Shown here: one piece after another, positions 16,932 to 62,062 of the stretch
Numbering within the stretch: the first letter of the stretch is position 1
Layout of the letters: each line of letters begins with the position of its first letter
Assembly: GCA_900318255.1 (NCBI GenBank)
Contig: ONJX01000012.1
Location: 16,184 to 80,183 of the forward strand
Length of the DNA stretch: 64,000 nucleotides
Direction of reading: 5' to 3'
From: an uncultured Prevotellaceae bacterium
Lineage (GTDB): Bacteria > Bacteroidota > Bacteroidia > Bacteroidales > Muribaculaceae
Program-made: the position numbers and the translations under genes
Notes under the pieces: generated by a model
What the model was told of the DNA's origin: nothing
What the model saw: only the letters and a program-made list of their open reading frames with translations
Database searches by the model: none

Positions 16932-17774
16932 TTAGTTCACAATCCTAAGTATATCAATAATATCCTGTAAATTCAGGCTTTGCCGCTTCACAACAACATG
17001 ATTCACATCAAGTAAATACATGCATGGGTATTGCTGAATTTCATACAGCCTAGAATTCTCAATTTCCCCATTGTCATAACCTTGTATCCAGGAATCCACT
17101 TTGCTATCGTCGCGACTAGATGATATTGCAAGAATATTGAGTTTTTTTTCGTATAATAATTGTTCAATCACGCCATTATTTTTCATCTCACATATAAGTT
17201 GATGACACAACTCACATGACGTGCGATGAAAAAGAATTAATGTCCATCTCCCTTTATAATCATTAAGTTGTCTTATCGAGCCGCCATTATCAACAAAAGA
17301 GAAATTCTCAGCTTCGTGACCTATCCTGTTCCTTTGCAGCCACTCCAGTTGCCATTGTGGCCTGATTTTATAGGAAGAATCTATATCGGCTGTAATTATT
17401 GACTCACAAATAGTCAAGTACAACTCGTTATCACATAATGGCGACTGCACATCATGCAAAAAATGCTCCATCCACCACAGCCACCGAGAAAGATTATCTT
17501 CATAATTTTTCAACTGCAACAGTAGTGAATTAATATTCTCATCAATCTCTTGTGACGACTGTTGTTTAATAAGATAAATGTAATCCAGCACCCTGTCGGG
17601 ACTAGAGAATAACGAAGTGTCGCTCAGGTTGGCACAGTCCCAGTAGTGTCGAGCCAAGTACTTAGTGCGTGACTCGACACTTACAAGACTGTCGGGAATG
17701 TGAGGATAAGAAAACACTTGCGCATTCCCTAATAACAAAAAGTGCGTGAAAAAGACTAACAGCAAGTGCCTCAT
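16932..17774 (-). CDS. Thioredoxin-fold exported protein (DUF5106/TlpA-like)
   Basis: This 280-aa protein has a signal peptide (MRHLLLVFFTHFLLLGNAQ) and a helical N-terminal region (~30-160) as in DUF5106-type proteins. A C-terminal thioredoxin-like domain (~165-280) has the redox motif C-E-L-C ('HRTSCELCHQL') and the late 'QQYPCMYLLD' with a cis-Pro-like Pro. It probably acts in the periplasm as a thiol oxidoreductase. The ATG at 17774 overlaps the TGA of the upstream gene as ATGA, indicating translational coupling; the longer frame to 17849 is rejected because it lacks the signal peptide at its end. It is the last gene of the seven-gene exported cluster. Confidence 0.8.
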   Translation of the reverse strand: MRHLLLVFFTHFLLLGNAQVFSYPHIPDSLVSVESRTKYLARHYWDCANLSDTSLFSSPDRVLDYIYLIKQQSSQEIDENINSLLLQLKNYEDNLSRWLWWMEHFLHDVQSPLCDNELYLTICESIITADIDSSYKIRPQWQLEWLQRNRIGHEAENFSFVDNGGSIRQLNDYKGRWTLILFHRTSCELCHQLICEMKNNGVIEQLLYEKKLNILAISSSRDDSKVDSWIQGYDNGEIENSRLYEIQQYPCMYLLDVNHVVVKRQSLNLQDIIDILRIVN

Positions 17775-18760
17775 TGTTTCTTTTTTATACCAAAACTGGG
17801 GCGGAAGGTGTAACCTATAGTAATCGACCAGTCGCTCTTGGTGCCCCATTGCCCACCAAAGTCAAGACTTCCTGGACCCACATACCAGCACACGCCAGCA
17901 AGCACGCGAGGCTCAAAAGATGTGTCAGGAGCAAAAATAAACCCTACACCGCCACCCACATAGGGTGCCAGCATCAGCTTCTTGAACCGATAGGGATAGA
18001 CACGTGTCGAGAGGCCCACATCGCCGGTGAACTGTGATTTAGACTCCTTGGCCTTATTTATACCCACATTTAAGGAAAGCGACAAATCAATAAAGTTTTT
18101 GTAAAGATAAGTACCTCCCTGCAGGGTTATTGAAGAGCTGAACATGTCGCTACTGTAATTCAACATGGCCCCTGCCGAGAAGAAGACACGGCTATCGCCT
18201 GTGGTTTGCAATTCCAGTGGTGAATAGTTCTGCAAGTCAAGATTTGTCGCATTCCATTGCTCTACTTGCGATGGTGCGCCATTGGCAGTTGTCCACAGCT
18301 CTTCCTCACCTGTAGCAGCAATCACCACCACATCATAGCCATAATACAGCTCCATGAATTTGCTTATCAGTTGGCGTTTCTCGCTTTCGCTGATTTGGGC
18401 ATAATTCTCGTTGGCATTGAGATACACCTTGTCGTTAACTGTATATCCCGAAATCACATACTTCTTGATAAGCGGGTCGTCAAACTTAGGCTTTTCAGAG
18501 CTTGAGGTTGTGACAGAAGTATAGCTGGATTGCTGCTCCTGCTGCTGAGATTGTTGATTGCTCTGATGGCGATTTATTGCATCAGCTGGTTTCTGGTCAT
18601 CTCTTGACTGCTGGCTGCTAGTTGATGGTTTATTCTTGCTCTTAACAACCTTCTCTGTCTTAGCTTTGCGCTTGTTGCTGCGCTTGCGCTTTTGTGCCTG
18701 GGCAACATTAACCTGACTTAATAGTATCGCTGTCAATATAAAAATAATTACTCTTCTCAT
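17771..18760 (-). CDS. Exported protein with basic/Gln-rich linker and C-terminal barrel
   Basis: This 329-aa protein has a signal peptide ending 'NVAQAQ'. A strongly basic segment (KRKRSNKRKAK) and a Ser/Gln-rich linker run to ~residue 80. A conserved-looking middle has 'KYVISGYTVNDKVYLNANE' and 'ELYYGYDVVVIAATGEEEL'. The ~190-329 region has paired strands ('SSSITLQGGTYLYKNFIDLS', 'LAPYVGGGVGFIFAP', 'WSITIGYTFRP') typical of small outer-membrane barrels. Its start overlaps the previous stop (ATGA at 18757-18760). The terminal KKKQ is encoded by an A-rich tract that also precedes the next start. The C-terminal half resembles that of its upstream neighbour. The basic linker could contact peptidoglycan or polyanions (guess). 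Confidence 0.75.
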   Translation of the reverse strand: MRRVIIFILTAILLSQVNVAQAQKRKRSNKRKAKTEKVVKSKNKPSTSSQQSRDDQKPADAINRHQSNQQSQQQEQQSSYTSVTTSSSEKPKFDDPLIKKYVISGYTVNDKVYLNANENYAQISESEKRQLISKFMELYYGYDVVVIAATGEEELWTTANGAPSQVEQWNATNLDLQNYSPLELQTTGDSRVFFSAGAMLNYSSDMFSSSITLQGGTYLYKNFIDLSLSLNVGINKAKESKSQFTGDVGLSTRVYPYRFKKLMLAPYVGGGVGFIFAPDTSFEPRVLAGVCWYVGPGSLDFGGQWGTKSDWSITIGYTFRPSFGIKKKQ

Positions 18761-19935
18761 TTTGCTTTCTTTTTAAGGTTAACGTCAAAGTAAAAAGTCT
18801 TGCCAAGCGAGAGGTAAAGGCTCGTCTTGCCACCACCAGTGAAGGGGAAATGCGCACCAAGCGTAATGTCAAACGATGACGTCTGCGAGGCATTTAGGAA
18901 TGTCAAGCCTATTGATGGGGAAAAACTCACTACATGAGAGTCCTTGCTGAACTGATAAGTGAGGCCCGACCCTAGCACTAGTTTATGAAATGTATAGTAG
19001 TAAGACAGGCCTATGTTGCCACCAAACTTCTTGTCGATGAGTGATGCCCCAACATTGATGGAATAACTGCTGTGGTTCTTGGTGTAAAGACCCAAGCGAG
19101 TGTTGAGCGAATAGGACTTCTTGGCTACCGTGCCACCAACATACCATATAAAACGAGCCTCCTGCTTCTGCAACCATGAGAGTTTCTCAGGAGCCTTGTT
19201 TTGAATGAGCTGCAGCTCGCGCAGGTGCTCATTGGCGGCAGTGCGCCCTGGGTCATTGGCATCCATGAGCGACACTGCTGTATTCAGCTCCGAGGCCGCC
19301 AGCCTGGCATTGCCCATCTGCTCACAAAGGTCGCTATAGCTGCTATGCAGCACGGCAACATCAGGATAAGTTTTCATCAAAGCGTCCATAAGAGCCAACG
19401 CTTGAACAGTCTGACCACTGGACTGCAATACATAGAACCGACGCAAGTCGCTGCGAGTGACAACTTGTTCTAATTTAACGACTTGCAAATATCGTGACTC
19501 GAGTTCCGACACCTCTTTCGCTATTAGCCAAGTGGGCGTAGCGGGCTGTGAAAAGGCTTGTGCAACATAATCACAACCAGCTATCTTCAGCACTTGCTGA
19601 CCATACCAGTCGCCCCATGTGGCACCAAGGCCACGAGCGCGGTCAGCATTTAGCAACGCCAACTCATGCTTGCCCTGCAAGGCTAACACCACGGCATACT
19701 CGCCCACCATGTTGCCATCCACGCCATGGCTGGGAGAGCGGTTGGCCTGAGCATGGGCGATGCACGCCTCATAACGAGCTGCCGCCTCATCATAACGACC
19801 TGCCCTAAAACTCTCACGCGCCTGAGTAACATCAGTTTCCTGATACCTGAACGTGCCTTTTACCAAGTCGCCCACCGACTGGGCTGAGGCTCCAATGTGA
19901 ATCAAAAGAATTATACTGAATAGAAAATATCTCAT
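18757..19935 (-). CDS. TPR-containing exported protein with barrel-like C-terminus
   Basis: This 392-aa protein has a signal peptide (MRYFLFSIILLIHIGASAQ). Helical repeats of TPR type span ~30-240: 'ARESFRAGRYDEAAARYEAC', then an 'ALQGKHELALLNADRA' helix pair and a later 'ASELNTAVSLMDANDPGR'. A strand-rich C-terminal part (~245-392) has alternating aromatic residues and Gly ('KLVLGSGLTYQFSKD', 'SFDITLGAHFPFTGGGK'). A TPR module joined to an outer-membrane-like barrel suggests a periplasmic scaffold anchored at the outer membrane. It starts one base after the pseudo-lipase stop and ends in KKKAK, overlapping the next gene as ATGA. Confidence 0.78.
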   Translation of the reverse strand: MRYFLFSIILLIHIGASAQSVGDLVKGTFRYQETDVTQARESFRAGRYDEAAARYEACIAHAQANRSPSHGVDGNMVGEYAVVLALQGKHELALLNADRARGLGATWGDWYGQQVLKIAGCDYVAQAFSQPATPTWLIAKEVSELESRYLQVVKLEQVVTRSDLRRFYVLQSSGQTVQALALMDALMKTYPDVAVLHSSYSDLCEQMGNARLAASELNTAVSLMDANDPGRTAANEHLRELQLIQNKAPEKLSWLQKQEARFIWYVGGTVAKKSYSLNTRLGLYTKNHSSYSINVGASLIDKKFGGNIGLSYYYTFHKLVLGSGLTYQFSKDSHVVSFSPSIGLTFLNASQTSSFDITLGAHFPFTGGGKTSLYLSLGKTFYFDVNLKKKAK

Positions 19936-19936
19936 A

Positions 19937-22300
19937 TTATTTTTTCTTTTTGTTTTGATCTTCTATCTGCTTAGATAATTTACGCCAATTCTTCCACCTT
20001 ATTTGAGAATTCTGGTTGCCACTTGAGGTGTACATCACGATTTTCAGGTCGTTTTTAAAATCGCTTTTGCCGTTTTTTTCATATTTCATTTTCTTCTCAT
20101 CAGCACCAATTTTCTTGGCAAAATCATTCACCTCGGCCTTTTCTACGGCTTCATTGATTACTAAGCCTTTTCCTACTGCCGAAGCGACATCTGAACCTAT
20201 TGAGTAAGCTTCTTGCGCCGCAGATTTCACACCACCACTTATGGCACCAAAAGCTGCACCTTCCAATCTCGTTTCCACAACACCTTCAACTGCTCCTCCA
20301 ACGGCACCATATGTTACTATGGCGACACCCAGTGCCGGAGACCCGACAGCTGATGCCGCAACTGCTTCAGGCACACTAGCTATTGCTCCTTTTATAGCTC
20401 CAGGTACTGCACCAGGGAATACTTCTGATATTGTAGGGGTCATACCTTCGATAACTCCATCTACTTTATTTTCGATGACACCTTCTATTGCACCTGCGAT
20501 TATTGGCGTCGCGCTTTTCTTGTCAATCGCTTCTGGAGTGCCTTTTAGCGCACTTAACGCTATAGATGTTCCAGTGTCCAACCCGTCTGTAAAACCACTT
20601 ACCATACCCGCTTTTGTGCTGGCAACAATGTTTTGACACGCGTCTTTAAGCCTTGTGTTGAGTTGCAAGTTGCTTAATTCTTCCGCCACACCTGGGGTAC
20701 CATATACTTTCTGGTCACCTATCGCTGATGCTGGTCCCAACAGGGCGGTCGTTTGGGGAATGGGGTTTAAAGATATTTTCTGCAGATGGTCTTTCATCTC
20801 ATCCGACGAGATCATTGCCGTGATATTGTAATTATGCTTACTGAAATCTTCGCTTAACCCATACTTTTCAAGCAATGGCTGAGGAACGCCCATTGCATTC
20901 ACCGTGGTGGTTGGGGCTCCGCCAGAGGCAAGCCCTGCCACACTCGCCCAAGAGCCCGCTAGAGCGCTTCCAGTAATGTTAACAGTGCAGTTGTCAGGAA
21001 GACTGGCAATGGCTCGTCCTATCTCTAACGCTGCCTGAAAATGCTTGGAGTCGGAGCCAAACTCTTTTACCATCTCATCAGCATTTCCCAATCCAAATGA
21101 GTCCAAAAGAGATGGAGTAAGATGTCCATTACCATTAAACACTATTGTATATTCATATTCACCCGAAGCGTCTTTCTCCCTCATTAAAATCTGGGCATTG
21201 AAACCGGTGTCTTTATTGTCTAAGTTTTTCTGGTTAATAAGATTTGCAAGATTATACATTGGATTATCGACAGTAACTTGAGATAAATCCATACGCTTAT
21301 AGCCCGTTGTCTCAGACAACCATCTTTGCATTTGTTTATTACTCTGGTCAGGGTCATAAGCCATCGCAAAAGCAATTGTTGTCATGTCAATCTCTCGTTT
21401 CCCTTCGTCCTCTAAAGCCGACTTTCTCATGTAATCGTAGCACTCATCCTTAAACTTATAGTAATTTTCTAGGAGTTGCTCTTCGTTCTCGGTGCGTTGA
21501 CTTTCAGGTTTTTTCTCAATTTTTTCTAATAATTCCTTTGAGCATCCGACTTGCTGACGGTACATTTCATAGATGCCAAACTCAACGTCTTCATAGCTAG
21601 CACTTAACATAAGAAAGGCATTTAATTCAGTTTTTTCTAGATATGGTTTATGGGCTATTGGTATAATGCCTTCATTTGCCCTTGATGGGTCATTAAGGGA
21701 AACAAACGGCTTGTCTGGGTCGATTACAAAACCGCTTGTTTTAGAGTTTCTTGAGGCATTGCTGGCGAATTCTTTTTCGTTTGAGCCCTTTCCGCTGGCA
21801 ATCCAGTTGTCGGCGCTGTTATACACACTTGCCGTCCAAGTGTCTTGCGGGATAGCTGTAGATGTACCTGTAAGCATTTGCTTCAAGGCATCGTTTTGCT
21901 TATCCCAGTCGCGGACTTCGGACGACGCGTTTCCCGAATAGAAACTGCCGCCCTTGCTCGGGCCCTCAAGGTTCACACCCGGTGCGTCGCCTGCGCCTCC
22001 CGAGCCAGTGCAGGGACCGCAAATAACACGAATTCTGCAGCCATCATAGCTCATATTTATTTCAGACATTATTATCTGTCTTGCCTGCTCACATTCGGCA
22101 CGGCTTGGAATGCCAAGGTTGACCTGGTTAACATAATGGTCAAAGATTCCCTGTGCTACGGCTTTATGCACGCCACCACCATCTATACCACTACAACTGC
22201 CGCTGATGTCAAGCTTCATCGTGAACGTGTAGGATGCCCAAGCCAAATGGGTGGTCGCCATCATAGCGACCACCACAAGTAGTTTGAATATAGTTCTCAT
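19937..22300 (-). CDS. Large exported protein with lipase_3-like fold lacking the catalytic Ser
   Basis: This 787-aa protein has a signal peptide ending 'HLAWAS'. Residues 25-105 hold six Cys in a region with 'SGSCSGIDGGG' and 'RVICGPCTGS'. Residues ~355-540 follow the order of class-3 lipase/DUF2974 alpha/beta-hydrolases: a strand ending 'YTIVFNGNGH', a helix 'FQAALEIGRAIASLP', then 'NITGSALAGSWASVAGLASG', then 'TTTVNAMGVP', 'YNITAMISSDEM' and 'AIGDQKVYGTP'. The elbow normally reads G-H-S-L-G-G; here it is G444-S-A-L-A-G449, so the nucleophile position is Ala446. Residues ~555-720 are a Gly/Ala/Val-rich hydrophobic region with repeated G-x-I-E-G-V patterns (PIIAGAIEGVIENK and similar). The C-terminal ~50 residues are basic. 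Base composition is more A/T-rich than the neighbours. A pseudo-enzyme or toxin-like surface protein is possible; function unknown. Confidence 0.7.
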   Translation of the reverse strand: MRTIFKLLVVVAMMATTHLAWASYTFTMKLDISGSCSGIDGGGVHKAVAQGIFDHYVNQVNLGIPSRAECEQARQIIMSEINMSYDGCRIRVICGPCTGSGGAGDAPGVNLEGPSKGGSFYSGNASSEVRDWDKQNDALKQMLTGTSTAIPQDTWTASVYNSADNWIASGKGSNEKEFASNASRNSKTSGFVIDPDKPFVSLNDPSRANEGIIPIAHKPYLEKTELNAFLMLSASYEDVEFGIYEMYRQQVGCSKELLEKIEKKPESQRTENEEQLLENYYKFKDECYDYMRKSALEDEGKREIDMTTIAFAMAYDPDQSNKQMQRWLSETTGYKRMDLSQVTVDNPMYNLANLINQKNLDNKDTGFNAQILMREKDASGEYEYTIVFNGNGHLTPSLLDSFGLGNADEMVKEFGSDSKHFQAALEIGRAIASLPDNCTVNITGSALAGSWASVAGLASGGAPTTTVNAMGVPQPLLEKYGLSEDFSKHNYNITAMISSDEMKDHLQKISLNPIPQTTALLGPASAIGDQKVYGTPGVAEELSNLQLNTRLKDACQNIVASTKAGMVSGFTDGLDTGTSIALSALKGTPEAIDKKSATPIIAGAIEGVIENKVDGVIEGMTPTISEVFPGAVPGAIKGAIASVPEAVAASAVGSPALGVAIVTYGAVGGAVEGVVETRLEGAAFGAISGGVKSAAQEAYSIGSDVASAVGKGLVINEAVEKAEVNDFAKKIGADEKKMKYEKNGKSDFKNDLKIVMYTSSGNQNSQIRWKNWRKLSKQIEDQNKKKK

Positions 22301-22311
22301 ATTGTAATCTT

Positions 22312-22845
22312 TTATTGATTAACCGGCGTGAAACTTGACTGGTATTTCACGGTAGCTCCCGACATTGCTCCGCCGCTTGTCAGATACTCAACAACATAAA
22401 TGCGACCGTAATGATATGACCTGAATTCATAATTTTGAGTCACCTCATTATAATATTGATCATATCCAACTCTTGCCACATAGCCATTACCAGGAACCAC
22501 AGCCACCTTTCTTGACCATCCTGTGGCAGGAATTGCTGTCACCTTGGCCAAGCCACTAACCGGGCCAACCGACACAAATTCAATGTCGTAATCGTCATCA
22601 TAAAAGTTCATGGCATCATCGATGTAACCATCCCAATAACTATTAGCACTAGCCACAAAACGAACTTGTGTGGCATCACGATAAGATTTAGCGGCAATCA
22701 TATTAACCACCACGGTTCCTTGAGGGTCATTTTCACTAACATTTACTGTATTTTCAAGGTCATCACCTCCGCATGACGTGAGGCCGAAACCGGTCATTGC
22801 AACCACGATGCCTGCAAAGAGCATCATTAAATATTTCTTTGTCAT
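22312..22845 (-). CDS. DUF5036-like lipoprotein
   Basis: This 177-aa protein has a lipoprotein signal ('GFGLTSCGGDD', Cys25), followed by an acidic linker, as is usual for surface-exposed Bacteroidales lipoproteins. The folded part has 'ANSYWDGYIDD' and 'SVGPVSGLAKVTAIPATGW', then 'VAVVPGNGYVARV'. This agrees with my recollection of DUF5036, a Bacteroidota family of unknown function; the assignment is moderate. The stop is 11 nt before the pseudo-lipase start, so the two are probably co-transcribed. I find no TAnnTTTG in the 119 nt upstream. Confidence 0.75.
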   Translation of the reverse strand: MTKKYLMMLFAGIVVAMTGFGLTSCGGDDLENTVNVSENDPQGTVVVNMIAAKSYRDATQVRFVASANSYWDGYIDDAMNFYDDDYDIEFVSVGPVSGLAKVTAIPATGWSRKVAVVPGNGYVARVGYDQYYNEVTQNYEFRSYHYGRIYVVEYLTSGGAMSGATVKYQSSFTPVNQ

Positions 22846-22964
22846 AATTGTAAAGAGTTTTTGTTGTTATTTGCAGTAATAGAGCAAGTTACAGAGTATG
22901 TTATCCAAACACTGGTCCAACTTCTCAATCACTCCAAAAAGCATAAAAAAAATCGAATAACTTG

Positions 22965-23438
22965 TTATCGCTTGTAATAAACATCTTCAGTGATAGATAT
23001 GCCTTGGGCATTTAAGGTGCATGTGAGCACAAGCTGGGTGGCGGTGAGTGATTTCACCCTCATCTTCATGGAGACACCCTCTGTGCCTTGAAGGTCGTCC
23101 ATGCCTTCAATCCACAGTGTGCCGTCGCTGTAGTATTTGTATGCCAGTCGGTCGCCAGTATTGACCATCACCACATATTCCTCTTCAAACTTCAGGTGCT
23201 CGTCAATAAACATGATGTTGCTGGTGCCCATTTGCTGGGAATACATTTGTCGAATCTCATTCAGTGTCATCTCAAAAGTCTGTCCCATGATATTCACCGA
23301 GGCCTTCTGGAAGGTCCAGGTCTCACCCTGAAGCAGGCTGGAATTTGAATTCACCTTGTCATCATCGTCGCCACACGCACTTAGCGAGAGCATTAACGCT
23401 GCTATCAGCAGCAGATAAAGAGCTTTAGTCTGTTTCAT
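22965..23438 (-). CDS. Lipocalin-like lipoprotein
   Basis: This 157-aa protein has a lipobox ('MLSLSACGDDDDK', Cys22). It has a single small beta-barrel-like domain beginning with 'LLQGETWTFQKASVN', followed by a helix (EMTLNEIRQMYSQQM), then alternating strands ('LKFEEEYVVMV', 'LAYKYYSDGTLWIEG', 'MRVKSLTATQLVLTCTLN'). It resembles the lipocalin-like lipoproteins common in Bacteroides, which have no defined ligand. It begins 5 nt after the barrel gene, so the two form a transcription unit. Confidence 0.75.
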   Translation of the reverse strand: MKQTKALYLLLIAALMLSLSACGDDDDKVNSNSSLLQGETWTFQKASVNIMGQTFEMTLNEIRQMYSQQMGTSNIMFIDEHLKFEEEYVVMVNTGDRLAYKYYSDGTLWIEGMDDLQGTEGVSMKMRVKSLTATQLVLTCTLNAQGISITEDVYYKR

Positions 23439-23443
23439 AATCT

Positions 23444-23977
23444 TTAGAATTTATAGGTTACACCTAGACCAAACACAGCCTGGTCAACATCCTTAACTAT
23501 TGAATACTTACCTTCAACGCCAACCGCAAGATGTGGGGTTATGAGATACTCAATGCCGGCACCTACATTGCCGCCAAAATAGGTCTTACTGCCACTGCTC
23601 TTGCCGGCATCGCCTATGTACTGCTGAAGCTCGGCTGGCACAGCACTTTTTGTGTCAATTTTTGTTCCAACAATAGTGAAACCCGCAAGAGGATAGATGC
23701 GGAACTTCTCTCCGAGGTAAAAAAGATAGTGCACGTTCACATTGTTCTCCCACATCGATACTCCGTCCTTCTTGAAGAAATAGTTGAACGCATCTTCGGC
23801 ACGGAAATGACTGGTGATGTCGTACTGCACCTTAGCGCCAACGGCAAACGACTTAATTTGGGTGCCATAAAGCCCATTGATGCCTACAGCAAACTTGCCT
23901 TGCCCGTAGGCCGACACCGCCGAAATGGTCAGCAGCAATCCACCAACCAAAACTCTTTTTAAAATAGACATTTTCAT
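23444..23977 (-). CDS. OMP_b-brl family small outer-membrane barrel
   Basis: This 177-aa protein has a signal peptide ('LLTISAVSAYGQG') and an eight-strand barrel pattern. Strands include 'FAVGINGLYG', 'FAVGAKVQYDITSHFRAE', 'NVNVHYLFYLGEKFRIYPL' and 'FGGNVGAGIEYLITPHLAVG', ending 'FGLGVTYKF' with terminal Phe, the usual BAM signal. It fits the OMP_b-brl/porin-family group of Bacteroidota. It is the first gene of the cluster. No promoter is seen in the 54 nt between its ATG and the terminator-like stem upstream, so expression probably depends on read-through of that element. Confidence 0.85.
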   Translation of the reverse strand: MKMSILKRVLVGGLLLTISAVSAYGQGKFAVGINGLYGTQIKSFAVGAKVQYDITSHFRAEDAFNYFFKKDGVSMWENNVNVHYLFYLGEKFRIYPLAGFTIVGTKIDTKSAVPAELQQYIGDAGKSSGSKTYFGGNVGAGIEYLITPHLAVGVEGKYSIVKDVDQAVFGLGVTYKF

Positions 23978-24030
23978 AACAGAATAATTAGTTTTTAAGT
24001 AGCCTCAAGCAGTCCTATTGAGACACATAT

Positions 24031-24063
24031 AAAACAACAAAAGCGTGGACTGCTATGCCACAC
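24031..24063 (-). terminator. Terminator stem competing with the 12-bp pair
   Basis: Minus strand: GTGTGG (24063-24058) pairs with CCACGC (24048-24043) with one G-U, loop CATAGCAGT, then TTTTGTTGTTTT. The 3' arm is also part of the 12-bp pair with 24117-24128, so the upstream strand can break this stem (anti-terminator). The wobble is only allowed on the minus strand, supporting that orientation. Confidence 0.6.
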
Positions 24064-24201
24064 TTTGTAATCTGACGGTCGTAGGAAAAACCTGGAATGC
24101 AAAAAGGGAATATAGAAGCAGTCCACGCATATAGCGCAGAAGCCGCTGTGCTATCTCTTGCATTCGAATCATGAAAATTTCCTACGTTTTCAGATTACAA
24201 G
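24031..24201 (-). ncRNA. Structured RNA: leader switch or 6S-like RNA
   Basis: On the minus strand three nested helices close a ~134-nt hairpin: TGTAATCTG with CAGATTACA (24191-24199/24066-24074), CGTAGGAAA with TTTCCTACG (24178-24186/24080-24088), and AATGCAA with TTGCATT (24158-24164/24096-24102). Inside is a hairpin ATAGCACAG/CTGCGCTAT (24131-24154). A 12-bp perfect pair GCGTGGACTGCT/AGCAGTCCACGC (24117-24128 with 24043-24054) crosses the closing stem, so the two cannot form together as simple secondary structure. A terminator follows. The promoter at 24261 would start it. I considered the Bacteroidales-1/6S RNA family (long hairpin plus terminator) and an attenuator of the barrel gene; I cannot separate them by eye. 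Confidence 0.55.
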
Positions 24202-24250
24202 AAAAGCATAACGCTTTATCATCAGCTATGTCAAAAAAAGTAATTCTTCA

Positions 24251-24270
24251 ATTACTTTTGCAAAAGTAAT
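24251..24270. promoter_or_regulatory. 20-bp perfect palindrome with -7 boxes on both strands
   Basis: ATTACTTTTGCAAAAGTAAT is a perfect palindrome that contains TACTTTTG (TAnnTTTG) on the plus strand (24253-24260) and on the minus strand (24268-24261). The minus copy would start the structured RNA. The palindrome could also bind a dimeric regulator. On the plus side no gene follows within the region. Confidence 0.55.
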
Positions 24271-24447
24271 ATAATAAAAAACGCCAGCAGAATTTTAATT
24301 GTTAAGAATTTTTAATTCCTCGCAAAAAATTAGTAACTATTCACCGATTATTATGCGTTTAGGCTGACCCTCAGTGAGAAACTGTATCATATTTTAAAAA
24401 CAACTGATTTTTAGATAAAATGCTCACGCTCGCAAGGCTTTAAGCTC

Positions 24448-24467
24448 GGACAAGGCACGCCTTGTCC
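24448..24467. repeat. PAL1 palindrome, copy 4
   Basis: GGACAAGGCACGCCTTGTCC followed by CTACATTTTTGTCTCGCTC. The downstream extension is nearly the same after the PAL1 copy at 33744 (CTACATTTGTCTCGCTC), so the repeat unit is longer than the palindrome. Confidence 0.9.
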
Positions 24468-24938
24468 CTACATTTTTGTCTCGCTCGGGGTGCATTTTTC
24501 TGATTAATCTGATTCTTTTTGGATTTACAAAAATCTGTCAACCAGGATATTGAAAAATTCAGAACATTCAGATAATTCAGTTGCTTGTATAAATTGATTG
24601 TTTTGATACACTTTCAATCGCTAAATAGTTACACTAAGACTGCTCAACGATCAGGCCAAATCTTCAAAAAACATTGTTGTCCGACAAAAGAAAGGGGGTC
24701 GTCGCTGGCGACAATTTTGTTGTTATCAAATACCCCCTTTGACACTTGTTCCGCTCGCTATCGCTCGTTACACAAGTGCCAAGGGGGGTTACTCAGAGGT
24801 CAGCCTTCGGCTGAAATCCGCCCCAAGAAAAGCAAGGCCCCACATTATGTTTCTACCATTATCGTATTGACTATCAATCAATAGTAGGAGATTCATAATC
24901 TTTAATCGAGCACTAATCTTCAAAAACAGGTTTAAAAG

Positions 24939-24977
24939 CTGTCCGCTTCGCAGGTTAAAAACTTGCGAGGCGGACAG
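24939..24977 (-). terminator. Hairpin terminator for the FKBP lipoprotein gene
   Basis: Arms of 18 bp with two mismatches (24939-24956 and 24960-24977; cores CTGTCCGC and GCGGACAG) around a 3-nt loop. On the minus strand it is followed by TTTTAAACCTGTTTTTG, about 75 nt after the stop at 25052. Confidence 0.65.
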
Positions 24978-25051
24978 TGGTCGGTGCCATGCCACAGGAT
25001 GGGCGGCATGGAGAGGGGCAGGCAGCCAGCCTTGACTATTGCTGGCTGTGG

Positions 25052-25609
25052 TTATAGCTCATACTTGGGAATTCCCACAAGCTTGATGTCAAACTGCAAC
25101 GTGGAGAAGGGCTTGATGTCGCCACTGGCGGTGGTGCCATAACCCACAATGTAGGGGATGATGACACGGCAGCTGTCGCCAATATGCATCCTGGGCACGG
25201 CAATAGCCCAACCCTCGATGACGCCGCTGCTCAAGCGGCAACGGAAGAGGCTGTCGGCAGGCGAGTTGCTAAGATAGGACGAGTCGATGGGTGTGCCGTC
25301 GTAGAGTCGCAGGTAATACTTCACATCAACCATCGACGAGAACTTAGGCTTGAGGTTGTTCCGCGTCAGGGCAGTATCATTAAACCAGTGTATAAGCACC
25401 TGAGCGGCAGGATCCCACGGTGCTGTGACCGTGGTGTAATAATTGCTGCCACCCTCGGTGCGGGCAGCCTGCTCAGCAAACCAAGCGATGTTGGCTTCGC
25501 GCCACTCGGCATAGTCGTCGGCAATCTTCTCATCGTCGTCTTTAAAGCACGCGGTGAGCACACTGCCAAGCACTATTACCATTATTAATATAAAAGGAAA
25601 TCTTCTCAT
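25052..25609 (-). CDS. FKBP-type peptidyl-prolyl isomerase lipoprotein
   Basis: This 185-aa lipoprotein (lipobox 'LGSVLTACFKDDD', Cys21) has a helical N-terminal part ('AEWREANIAWFAEQAA') and a C-terminal FKBP-like domain (~80-185). Family-like motifs are 'VDVKYYLRLYDGTPIDSSY' (strand, flap), 'VIEGWAIAVPRMHIGDSCRV' (the usual V-I-x-G-W-x-x-x-L) and 'IIPYIVGYG', then 'LQFDIKLV'. It should be a periplasmic or surface prolyl isomerase or chaperone. The ATG at 25609 gives the signal peptide directly; the in-frame TTG four codons upstream is unnecessary. It lies downstream of glyS on the same strand with a PAL1 copy between; a glycyl-tRNA synthetase/FKBP neighbourhood is, from memory, common in Bacteroidales. 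Confidence 0.85.
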   Translation of the reverse strand: MRRFPFILIMVIVLGSVLTACFKDDDEKIADDYAEWREANIAWFAEQAARTEGGSNYYTTVTAPWDPAAQVLIHWFNDTALTRNNLKPKFSSMVDVKYYLRLYDGTPIDSSYLSNSPADSLFRCRLSSGVIEGWAIAVPRMHIGDSCRVIIPYIVGYGTTASGDIKPFSTLQFDIKLVGIPKYEL

Positions 25610-25695
25610 TTTATTAAACAAAAATTACAAGACTGTTGTATTTCTTTTTGCAAGCATGCAAGCCACACTAATGCACGCCTAAACGACTTTAACGT

Positions 25696-25711
25696 ACAAG
25701 GCACGCCTTGT
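25696..25711. repeat. PAL1 palindrome, copy 5 (slightly shortened)
   Basis: ACAAGGCACGCCTTGT followed by CCCTGC, between the glyS stop (25725) and the FKBP gene start. Confidence 0.85.
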
Positions 25712-25724
25712 CCCTGCACAACAT

Positions 25725-27275
25725 TTAATCATTGTGCATCGACTTGAGAAGGCGGGTGAGGCTGCACTGCTCGCCAATGATGGCTGGCAGGTCGCCGATG
25801 GCCACGCGCTGCTGCTCCATGGTGTCGCGGTCGCGCAGGGTCACGGTGTTGTCTTCGCAGGTCTGGCCGTCGATGGTGATACAGTAAGGGGTGCCAATGG
25901 CGTCCATGCGGCGGTAGCGCTTACCCACGCTGTCCTTCTCGTCGTAGCGGCACGCGAAGTCAAACTTGAGCATGTCCATAATCTCGCGCGCCTTCTCGGG
26001 CATGCCGTCCTTGCGCACCAGCGGCAGGATGGCGCACTTGACGGGAGCCAGCGCCTTGGGCAGGTGCAGCACCACGCGGGTGTCGCCGCCCTCGAGCTTC
26101 TGCTCCTCGTAGCTCGAGCACATCACCGAGAGGAACATGCGGTCAACGCCTATCGAGGTCTCTATTACATAAGGAGTGTAGCTCTCGTTCAACTCTGGGT
26201 CGAAGTATTGAATCTTCTTTCCACTAAATTTCTCGTGCTGTGAGAGGTCAAAATTAGTGCGGCTGTGGATGCCCTCCACCTCCTTGAAGCCAAATGGCAT
26301 CTGGAACTCGATGTCGGTGGCGGCATTGGCATAGTGAGCCAGCTTCTCGTGGTCGTGGAAGCGGTATTTCTCGTCGCCCAGCCCCAGTGCCTTGTGCCAG
26401 CGCAGGCGGTTCTGCTTCCACACCTCAAACCACTTCAACTCCTCGCCCGGACGCACAAAGAACTGCATCTCCATCTGCTCAAACTCACGCATGCGGAACA
26501 CAAACTGGCGCGCCACAATCTCGTTGCGGAACGCTTTGCCTATCTGTGCTATACCAAATGGCAGACGCATGCGCCCGGTCTTCTGCACGTTGAGGAAGTT
26601 CACAAAGATGCCCTGAGCAGTCTCGGGACGCAGATACACGTCCATAGTGCTGTCGCTGCTGCTGCCCATCTGAGTCTTGAACATGAGGTTGAACTGACGC
26701 ACGTCGGTCCAGTTGCGGGTGCCGCTGATGGGGTCAACTATCTCGTAGTCAAGGATTATCTGCTTGAGCTCGTTGAGGTCGTTATCGTTCATCGCCTTCT
26801 CAAAGCGGGCGTGCAGCTCGTCCCATTTCTTCTGGTTCTCGAGCACGCGAGGGTTGGTCTGGCGGAACATCGCCTCGTCGAAGCTGTCGCCAAAGCGCTT
26901 GCGGGCTTTAGCCACCTCCTTGTCCATCTTCTCCTCATATTTTGCTAGCTGGTCTTCAATAAGCACGTCGGCGCGATAACGCTTCTTGCTGTCGCGGTTG
27001 TCGATGAGTGGGTCGTTGAAGGCATCCACGTGGCCGCTGGCCTTCCAGATGGTGGGGTGCATAAACACCGCCGAGTCGAGGCCCACGATATTCTCGTGCA
27101 GCAGCGTCATGGCCTCCCACCAGTAACGCTTGATGTTGTTCTTCAACTCCACACCATTCTGGCCGTAGTCATAGACAGCACCCAGGCCATCATAAATCTC
27201 ACTCGACGGGAAAACAAACCCATACTCCTTGCAATGCGATACAATCTTCTTGAAAACGTCTTCGTTCTGTGCCAT
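25725..27275 (-). CDS. glyS: Glycyl-tRNA synthetase (class II, homodimer type)
   Basis: This 516-aa protein attaches glycine to tRNA-Gly in the cytoplasm. It is the single-chain alpha2 type found in Bacteroidota. Visible class II motifs: 'GIAQIGKAFRNEI' and 'FRMREFEQMEMQFF' (motif 2 area, ~245-275) and 'YVIETSIGVDRMFLSVMC' (motif 3, ~370-390). A C-terminal anticodon-binding domain (~410-516) starts 'LPKALAPVKCAILPLV'. The N-terminal 'SHCKEYGFVFPSSEIYDGL' with 'DYGQNGVELKNNIKRYWW' is typical of the family. Length is normal. It has a -7 box at 27369 and heads a unit with the FKBP lipoprotein. Confidence 0.97.
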   Translation of the reverse strand: MAQNEDVFKKIVSHCKEYGFVFPSSEIYDGLGAVYDYGQNGVELKNNIKRYWWEAMTLLHENIVGLDSAVFMHPTIWKASGHVDAFNDPLIDNRDSKKRYRADVLIEDQLAKYEEKMDKEVAKARKRFGDSFDEAMFRQTNPRVLENQKKWDELHARFEKAMNDNDLNELKQIILDYEIVDPISGTRNWTDVRQFNLMFKTQMGSSSDSTMDVYLRPETAQGIFVNFLNVQKTGRMRLPFGIAQIGKAFRNEIVARQFVFRMREFEQMEMQFFVRPGEELKWFEVWKQNRLRWHKALGLGDEKYRFHDHEKLAHYANAATDIEFQMPFGFKEVEGIHSRTNFDLSQHEKFSGKKIQYFDPELNESYTPYVIETSIGVDRMFLSVMCSSYEEQKLEGGDTRVVLHLPKALAPVKCAILPLVRKDGMPEKAREIMDMLKFDFACRYDEKDSVGKRYRRMDAIGTPYCITIDGQTCEDNTVTLRDRDTMEQQRVAIGDLPAIIGEQCSLTRLLKSMHND

Positions 27276-61923: not shown

Positions 61924-61954
61924 TTTGCCAGTAACAAAAAAAGTTGTACCTTTG
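61924..61954 (+). promoter_or_regulatory. Promoter of the SRP RNA
   Basis: TTTG (61924-61927), 19-bp spacer, TACCTTTG (61947-61954): the full Bacteroidota -33/-7 arrangement, 6 bp before the RNA start. Confidence 0.85.
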
Positions 61955-61959
61955 CACCC

Positions 61960-62062
61960 GGGTAAGTCCTACACGGCCAGCTCCCTGCCAATCCCCCAGG
62001 TCTTGACCGAAGCAAGGGTAACAGGTTGTAGCGGCGCGATGTAGTCTTCTTACCCTTTTTTT
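61960..62062 (+). ncRNA. ffs: Signal recognition particle RNA (4.5S-type)
   Basis: About 96 nt form one long hairpin closed by GGGTAAG (61960-61966) and CTTACCC (62049-62055), followed by seven T (terminator). The apical part contains CCCCCAGGTCTTGACCGAAG then CAAGGGTAACAGG, the arrangement of the domain IV Ffh-binding helix with its tetraloop and asymmetric internal loop. A full -33/-7 promoter lies just upstream. It assembles with Ffh to target membrane proteins. Length and loop order fit small Bacteroidota SRP RNAs as I recall them. Confidence 0.85.

Follow-up and report, generated by a model that had tools for sequence, protein, structure and literature searches.

The window, a 64,000-nucleotide stretch of DNA from an uncultured Prevotellaceae bacterium, carries on its minus strand seven consecutive same-strand open reading frames (ORFs) between positions 23977 and 16932, as the preliminary description of this DNA had recorded. 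The first encodes a predicted outer-membrane protein. The other six comprise two lipoprotein-like ORFs recognized by eye (one of them DUF5036), a 787-aa ORF, a TPR-containing ORF, a 329-aa ORF, and, as the last of the cluster, a DUF5106/AhpC-TSA ORF. Three of the seven ORFs had no match in Pfam, and a reading of the N-termini suggests that the proteins of the cluster are, apparently, mostly exported. Elsewhere in the window, a Bacteroidales small SRP RNA (RF04183) lies at 61953-62059, and its match to the Bacteroidales model makes a host within that order probable.

The region immediately ahead of the first gene can fold into an elaborate structure (Table 1). The long nested hairpin of the preliminary description is present, with the helix termed P2 here as its closing helix, and so are the perfect 12-bp pair (X) that crosses it and the U-tailed, terminator-type hairpin (T). 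The fold is far more stable than that of shuffled sequences (z -6.5; 0 of 200 shuffles), and a perfect helix of at least 12 bp with a loop of at least 20 nucleotides arose once when the element was dinucleotide-shuffled 300 times. The promoter-like TACTTTTG is the sole minus-strand TAnnTTTG in 18489-26248, so that, as had been noted, none occurs between it and the first gene (24260-23978) or in the gap at 22846-22964. It forms half of a palindrome at 24253-24268, and the plus strand carries the same element. The element begins earlier than first described, at 24216, where a closing stem, P1, is formed with 24046-24041. Further additions to the earlier picture are a loop–loop helix and a pseudoknot-like helix inside the element, and a hairpin downstream of it with a loop able to pair with the terminator strand.

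Table 1. Leader element and gene cluster of the window, in window coordinates.
Feature	Position	Strand	Basis or pairing
Bacteroidales-type -7 promoter-like element TACTTTTG	24261..24268	-	motif scan and upstream counts in copies
Leader RNA core, P1 to U tract	24031..24216	-	R1 match 24216-24038, 170.8 bits (window copy among the sequences R1 was built from)
P1 5' strand AAGCGT	24211..24216	-	pairs with 24046-24041; 2 of its 6 pairs doubly changed across the class
P1b 5' strand	24205..24210	-	pairs with 24059-24054
Px 5' strand TTCTTG	24198..24203	-	pairs with CAAGAG 24160-24155
P2 5' strand	24190..24199	-	pairs with 24075-24066
Hairpin P3a	24173..24191	-	loop CGTAGGAAA (24186-24178) forms P3 with 24088-24080
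P4 5' strand	24158..24165	-	pairs with 24102-24095
Apical hairpin P5	24118..24151	-	3' arm GCGTGGACTGC doubles as 5' partner of X
Hairpin P3b (GGT/ACC)	24077..24092	-	bears 3' strand of loop–loop helix P3
Shared switch strand AGCAGTCCACGC	24043..24054	-	X partner (24128-24117); parts also serve P1, T, and K
Local terminator-type hairpin T	24041..24065	-	24065-24058 with 24048-24041
U tract TTTTGTTGTTTT	24031..24042	-	sequence
Downstream hairpin	24004..24022	-	loop GGACTGCT (24015-24008), potential partner of K strand AGCAGTCC (24054-24047)
First gene behind leader	23444..23977	-	outer-membrane beta-barrel domain (PF13505)
Six more same-strand ORFs	16932..23438	-	Pfam and reading by eye

Copies of the element were found well outside this locus. 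Used as a query, a 231-base stretch hit its own genome at five places, one hit being a piece of 43 bases. In total, 18 of 61 genomes, the own genome included, had a match, and most matches began at query base 39-42. A covariance model built from 35 copies (R1) gave ten matches in the own genome, eight with an E-value below 1e-8, and matches in 47 of the 61 genomes of the genus. Two of the own-genome matches (L076 and L077, genome C47) are about 30 nt longer, apparently owing to an insertion around the apical hairpin, and may form a subtype. A second model, R2, was built from distant copies only, without the host genus; it recovers the window copy at 48.4 bits (E 1.2e-9 in 364 kb). R2 matched 109 of 395 class genomes, representing 66 of 197 genera, and 38 of 296 phylum genomes, nine of these lying outside the class with weaker scores. 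The E-values are approximate, and the copy counts are lower bounds because few candidates were scored per genome. A DNA pattern scan of named genomes yielded at least 116 stretches, and R1 confirmed 77 of 80 among the pattern matches listed. Confirmed carriers include Bacteroides, Phocaeicola, Parabacteroides, Butyricimonas, Alistipes, Xylanibacter, Porphyromonas, Barnesiella, and Muribaculaceae; eleven named Bacteroidales genomes have four to six matches each at E 1e-4 or better, among the matches listed; the cultured Bacteroides xylanisolvens XB1A has four. Loci L289 and L260, from records named Bacteroides xylanisolvens XB1A and Phocaeicola coprophilus DSM 18228, are identical across the copy and the flanks shown, as if recently exchanged. 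Judged by sequence comparison, the window element is one copy of an unnamed, multicopy structured RNA family, roughly 180 bases in size, that is widespread in Bacteroidia, including common gut species, and the finding reaches far beyond one operon.

The architecture of the RNA was assessed by comparison of these copies. In a MAFFT alignment of 24 class copies, made without fitting to structure, helices P1, P2, P3, and P5 were paired in 94.7% of cells, compared to 75.4% in shuffles, and held 124 double-changed cells, compared to 33.5 in shuffles. Slid controls on this alignment were 30-40% paired, a comparison that favors the helices because their columns were picked on the same alignment. Double changes occurred at all seven modelled pairs of P2 and all seven of P3. 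Compensatory changes across homologues, which the preliminary description had put forward as a check on its structure, are thus present in P1, P2, P3, and P5 of the class alignment. Rankings of covariation column by column were too noisy for use alone.

A complementary test asked how well a strand pairs with its own partner rather than with the partner of unrelated copies, in a sample of 96 copies (90 from the class and six from the R1 set). The own partner was favored in 96 of 96 copies for P2, for P3, and for the P4 region, in 83 for Px (p 2e-14), in 72 for P3b (p 1e-7), and in 70 for P1 (p 1e-5). The effect was weak for P3a (54 of 96, p 0.008) and not significant class-wide for P1b (50 of 96, p 0.07), in which one pair is A-U in 23 of 43 copies and U-A in 18. 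Four control pairings gave p values of 0.5 to 0.97. P1, P2, and P3 were part of the model behind the 96-copy alignment, which tilts the test in their favor; that model contained none of Px, P3a, P3b, P4, K, and X. Both swaps and shuffles remove shared ancestry only in part. Each strand of P3 lies in a hairpin loop, one in that of P3a (GAAA...TTTC) and the other in that of P3b (GGTA...TACC), which makes P3 a loop–loop helix, and Px joins a TTCTTG-like strand before P2 with a CAAGAG-like strand beside P4, overlapping P4 by 3 nt in the window copy. The comparative data support a predicted four-arm junction (P2, P3a, P4–P5, and P3b) that is held by P3 and Px and closed by P1. They likewise support the prediction of a U-rich tract behind this core and, ahead of the start codon, a small hairpin whose loop pairs back as helix K.

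No match to a family of Rfam 15 at gathering score was found at the element in the window, in 20 loci of which 19 are distant class copies (the only matches, two tRNAs, lay elsewhere), or in 15 named Bacteroidales loci. The alternative that had been raised for this locus, a stand-alone RNA of the 6S or Bacteroidales-1 type, finds no backing here: the covariance search of the window returned only unrelated matches at chance level up to E 10, neither family among them, and the copies sit ahead of genes. Two candidate identities were rejected. BTnc231 gave a 14-bit match on class locus L091 against a cut-off of 80.4 and differs in structure; three Bacteroides genomes have their true BTnc231 loci at other places. 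The FopS family of small RNAs (sRNAs), as portrayed in the accessible part of PMC11697453, has a single-stranded, conserved 5' seed and a terminator, in contrast to the structure found here; it acts in trans and has been deposited in Rfam. A search of the open-licence PMC literature, with supplementary tables outside its scope, retrieved no description of the element, and none appears in the accessible parts of PMC7366714, PMC10994844, and PMC8040213. Given that scope, the element may already figure in a list with just a serial number, either as an sRNA or among the thousands of candidates of PMC8040213.

The placement of the copies points to a role in the leader of an mRNA. A TAnnTTTG motif lies within 110 nt upstream of 42 of 45 genus copies and 99 of 127 class copies, compared to 3 and 4, respectively, in an equal downstream window and 7 and 14 on the reverse strand upstream. 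A same-strand gene start, counted as an ATG ORF of at least 60 aa, follows within 100 nt in 37 of 45 genus copies and 94 of 128 class copies. A fair divergent control needs a long upstream flank, and most class stretches had only 250 bases upstream; among copies with at least 600 bases, the same-strand start is present in 36 of 44 genus copies, compared to 3 on the divergent side, and in 21 of 26 class copies, compared to 5. This position predicts a 5' leader, transcribed ahead of the gene that follows it; the conserved structured domain of a riboswitch would reside in just such a place. Shortly before P1, an ACATAT or GACATAT motif recurs in many class copies (L089, L091, L093, L088, and L094); in Bacteroidales (L289 and relatives), it stands behind a small GGATTG-type hairpin.

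At the 3' end of the RNA, one strand, which reads AGCAGTCCACGCTT in the window, has several potential partners. P1 uses its ACGCTT, X uses AGCAGTCCACGC, and K uses AGCAGTCC, pairing with loop GGACTGCT. X is mutually exclusive with P1, P5, and K; K excludes X and T and is compatible with P1. K favors its own partner in 65 of 96 copies (p 8e-8) and, scored by energy in Bacteroidales copies, in 43 of 57 (p 1e-4), with compensatory pairs. By run length alone the difference is small, with runs of six or more in 72% of copies compared to 60% after swapping, and in several copies the K partner is no longer than 4-5 nt. Concerted changes of both K strands occur in Parabacteroides faecalis (GTTGGCTC/GAGCCGAC), in a Paludibacter (GCGGTTCC/GGAACCG), and in Phocaeicola coprophilus (GCAGCTCC/GGAGCT).

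X is paired in 96.4% of alignment cells and varies little, with a double change at one of its eight pairs. In 92 of 96 copies, at least seven of the eight pairs can form, compared to 21% for shuffled 8-mers. The own partner is favored in 71 of 96 copies (p 2e-5); removal of the copies whose apical arm was misplaced shrinks this advantage to 59 of 81 (p 0.025), and within Bacteroidales, there was no such advantage (22 of 57). The nucleotide that follows ACGC is shared by P1 and X and is the only such position with good variation. It fits the P1 partner in 76 of 100 copies, the X partner in 85, and both in 65, and the highest values in 2000 shuffles were 68 for P1 and 72 for X; related copies contribute much to this fit, above all one TTGCG subgroup. 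Hairpin T, at -9.7 kcal/mol in the window, is weakly supported by the own-versus-swapped comparison in Bacteroidales copies (p 0.04), and as a general mechanism it was rejected, with only 22 of 90 class copies reaching -6 kcal/mol or below. Sequence comparison thus identifies P1, X, and K as pairings that share one strand, on which X excludes the other two, with mutual exclusion as in riboswitch expression platforms; the support for these predicted competitors is good for K and P1 and modest for X.

Two groups of copies show further features around the RNA end. In a subgroup (L087, L089, L091, L097, L126, L127, L138, and L141), an A tract immediately ahead of the start codon offers the U tract a pairing partner; several of the genes that follow resemble DNA methylase or restriction genes. 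The four copies L169, L179, L184, and L217, which come from three genomes within a single family, have the sequence CCCCTC-TTTTTT-GAGGGG spanning the RNA end and precede a similar response-regulator (CheB-like) gene.

Based on these comparisons, a simple model would suggest that the minus strand at 24268-24004 is a copy of a Bacteroidia leader element that is transcribed ahead of its gene and acts as a riboswitch-like folding switch, in which P1 and K together oppose X or T and a signal sets the balance. We consider this the likely reading, with a probability of roughly 0.57; transcription as one RNA, termination, the direction of control, and the ligand are its inferred parts. In the closed state, P1 would tie the 5' end to the ACGCTT strand, and the neighboring CAGTCC strand would be captured by the downstream loop as K. 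P1 and K would block both terminator-type stems, allowing the polymerase to read through, and K would then shape the start region. Because K cannot form until the polymerase has cleared the U tract, it may act on translation too. In the open state, the same strand would pair as X with the apical GCGTGG arm, beside the U tract, and transcription would stop; in the host genus, the local hairpin T beside the U tract could serve instead. The balance would most likely be set by a small molecule bound by the core.

It is important to note that this model retains only part of the switch proposed in the preliminary description, in which a terminator and an anti-terminator compete ahead of the cluster. 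The idea of a folding switch gains from the conserved rival partners of the 3' strand, but the 12-bp pair X is one rival among several and less well supported than others. The roles also shift: because X excludes P1, P5, and K and abuts the U tract, it looks terminator-type rather than anti-terminator, and the likelier read-through state would be the one with P1 and K.

The working principle of such a switch resembles, by analogy, those of junctional kissing-loop riboswitches and of the kissing expression platform of the cobalamin riboswitch. Purine- and lysine-type riboswitches share with the element a P1-closed junction next to the expression platform and two hairpins with kissing loops; the element differs in its four-arm junction and extra crossing helix, in its diverse targets, and in lacking an Rfam match. 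The cobalamin riboswitch is alike in that its core kisses an expression-platform hairpin close to the start codon; the strand that is kissed here is flanked by P1b and P1 and precedes the U tract, and again no Rfam model matches. Intrinsic-terminator attenuators and riboswitches also place a U-tailed hairpin and a competing pairing before a gene, but the element has an additional competitor, K, behind the terminator. 6S RNA and Bacteroidales-1 have in common with the element a similar size, a long hairpin-like form, and a U-tailed 3' end; the element differs in being multicopy, in sitting before genes, and in having no Rfam match. The FopS and GibS sRNAs of Bacteroides are multicopy RNAs with their own promoters (PMC11697453, accessible part), and the published description of FopS sets it apart from the element, as does the lack of any hit by an Rfam model at the loci tested.

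The genes that would be controlled are diverse, including surface leucine-rich-repeat (LRR) proteins, lipoproteins, DNA methylases, and regulators. Among 43 first genes of the genus, 13 match BspA-type LRR_5 and six match dockerin; among 100 first genes of the class, five match N6_N4_Mtase, four response-regulator domains, four sigma-70 region 4, and four SBBP, with many families occurring once. PADLOC methylase models match up to six of the 100 class genes and few in the genus. A crude count finds signal peptides in 33 of 43 genus and 55 of 100 class genes, compared to 10 of 41 and 13 of 91 internal segments. No common target pathway was seen among the 43 and 100 first genes scanned, which would be unusual for metabolite riboswitches. 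Copies also occur on plasmids: between mobV and a beta-lactamase gene on pBUN1 of B. uniformis, flanked by a hypothetical and a DUF4433 gene in P. distasonis, behind ORFs judged mob-like by eye and before a lipoprotein-like ORF in P. massiliensis, and between hypothetical genes in B. finegoldii. Another P. distasonis plasmid (L344) holds a truncated copy without its 5' part, and one phage-labelled, unannotated record carries the element. On Bacteroidales plasmids (L343, L339, and L340), the leader can sit between mobilisation-type and cargo genes. A tentative extension of the model, to which we give somewhat less than even odds, is that the family represents a missed riboswitch class of Bacteroidota, in which a kissing-loop aptamer with an unusual multi-way platform would let a general signal, such as a nucleotide second messenger, gate accessory genes for surface proteins, DNA methylases, regulators, and plasmid cargo, the whole travelling with mobile elements as a control cassette.

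The diversity of targets would fit a global regulator, and the same alternative pairings could be decided by protein binding, the leader being read in cis by, for instance, an RRM-type RNA-binding protein. Bacteroides possesses a global RNA-binding protein, RbpB, with multicopy RNA ligands, but RbpB was reported to bind preferentially in single-stranded regions (PMC11697453, accessible part). A multi-helix core with loop–loop contacts, in turn, exceeds the usual protein site, and we regard a protein-read leader as rather unlikely.

Slightly less likely still is a structured leader that does not switch and would stabilize the mRNA or tune translation, the alternative pairings being by-products of a conserved sequence. 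In the window, X is computed to be 10 kcal/mol less stable than P1, and X is the more stable of the two in only 7 of 90 class copies, pseudoknot energies lying outside the model in both comparisons; this preference for P1, the low variation of X, and its modest own-partner advantage all agree with a static leader. Set against them are the three-way fit at the shared nucleotide, the U tract that follows it, the exclusion of X and T by K, and, in the window copy, the equal computed energies of the P1 state (-66.9 kcal/mol) and the T state (-67.0 kcal/mol).

The promoter-like motif and the U-tailed hairpin could also belong to a stand-alone sRNA with its own terminator and an incidental downstream gene, and further multicopy sRNA families are known in Bacteroides (PMC11697453, accessible part). 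This reading is improbable in view of the excess of same-strand over divergent gene starts, the covariation of K with the region behind the terminator, and the lack of an Rfam sRNA match at the loci tested. Least probable by far is an element acting as DNA, be it as a portable promoter cassette or as a site for recombination or mobilisation that takes up its fold when single-stranded: the B. uniformis and P. massiliensis plasmid copies and the many copies before accessory genes would suit it, but the promoter-like motif upstream and the start codon downstream speak against it, and the G-U pairs kept on this strand (U-G is the commonest pair at one P5 position, in 19 of 23 scored copies) fit RNA.

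More generally, a strongly covarying, complex RNA that occurs in more than a quarter of the sampled class genomes and has no match in Rfam would constitute a large uncharacterized leader family. The folding-switch model poses a question that can be tested in cultured Bacteroides, namely which signal is read to control surface, defence-type, and cargo genes, and the element could supply a switch for the engineering of gut commensals.
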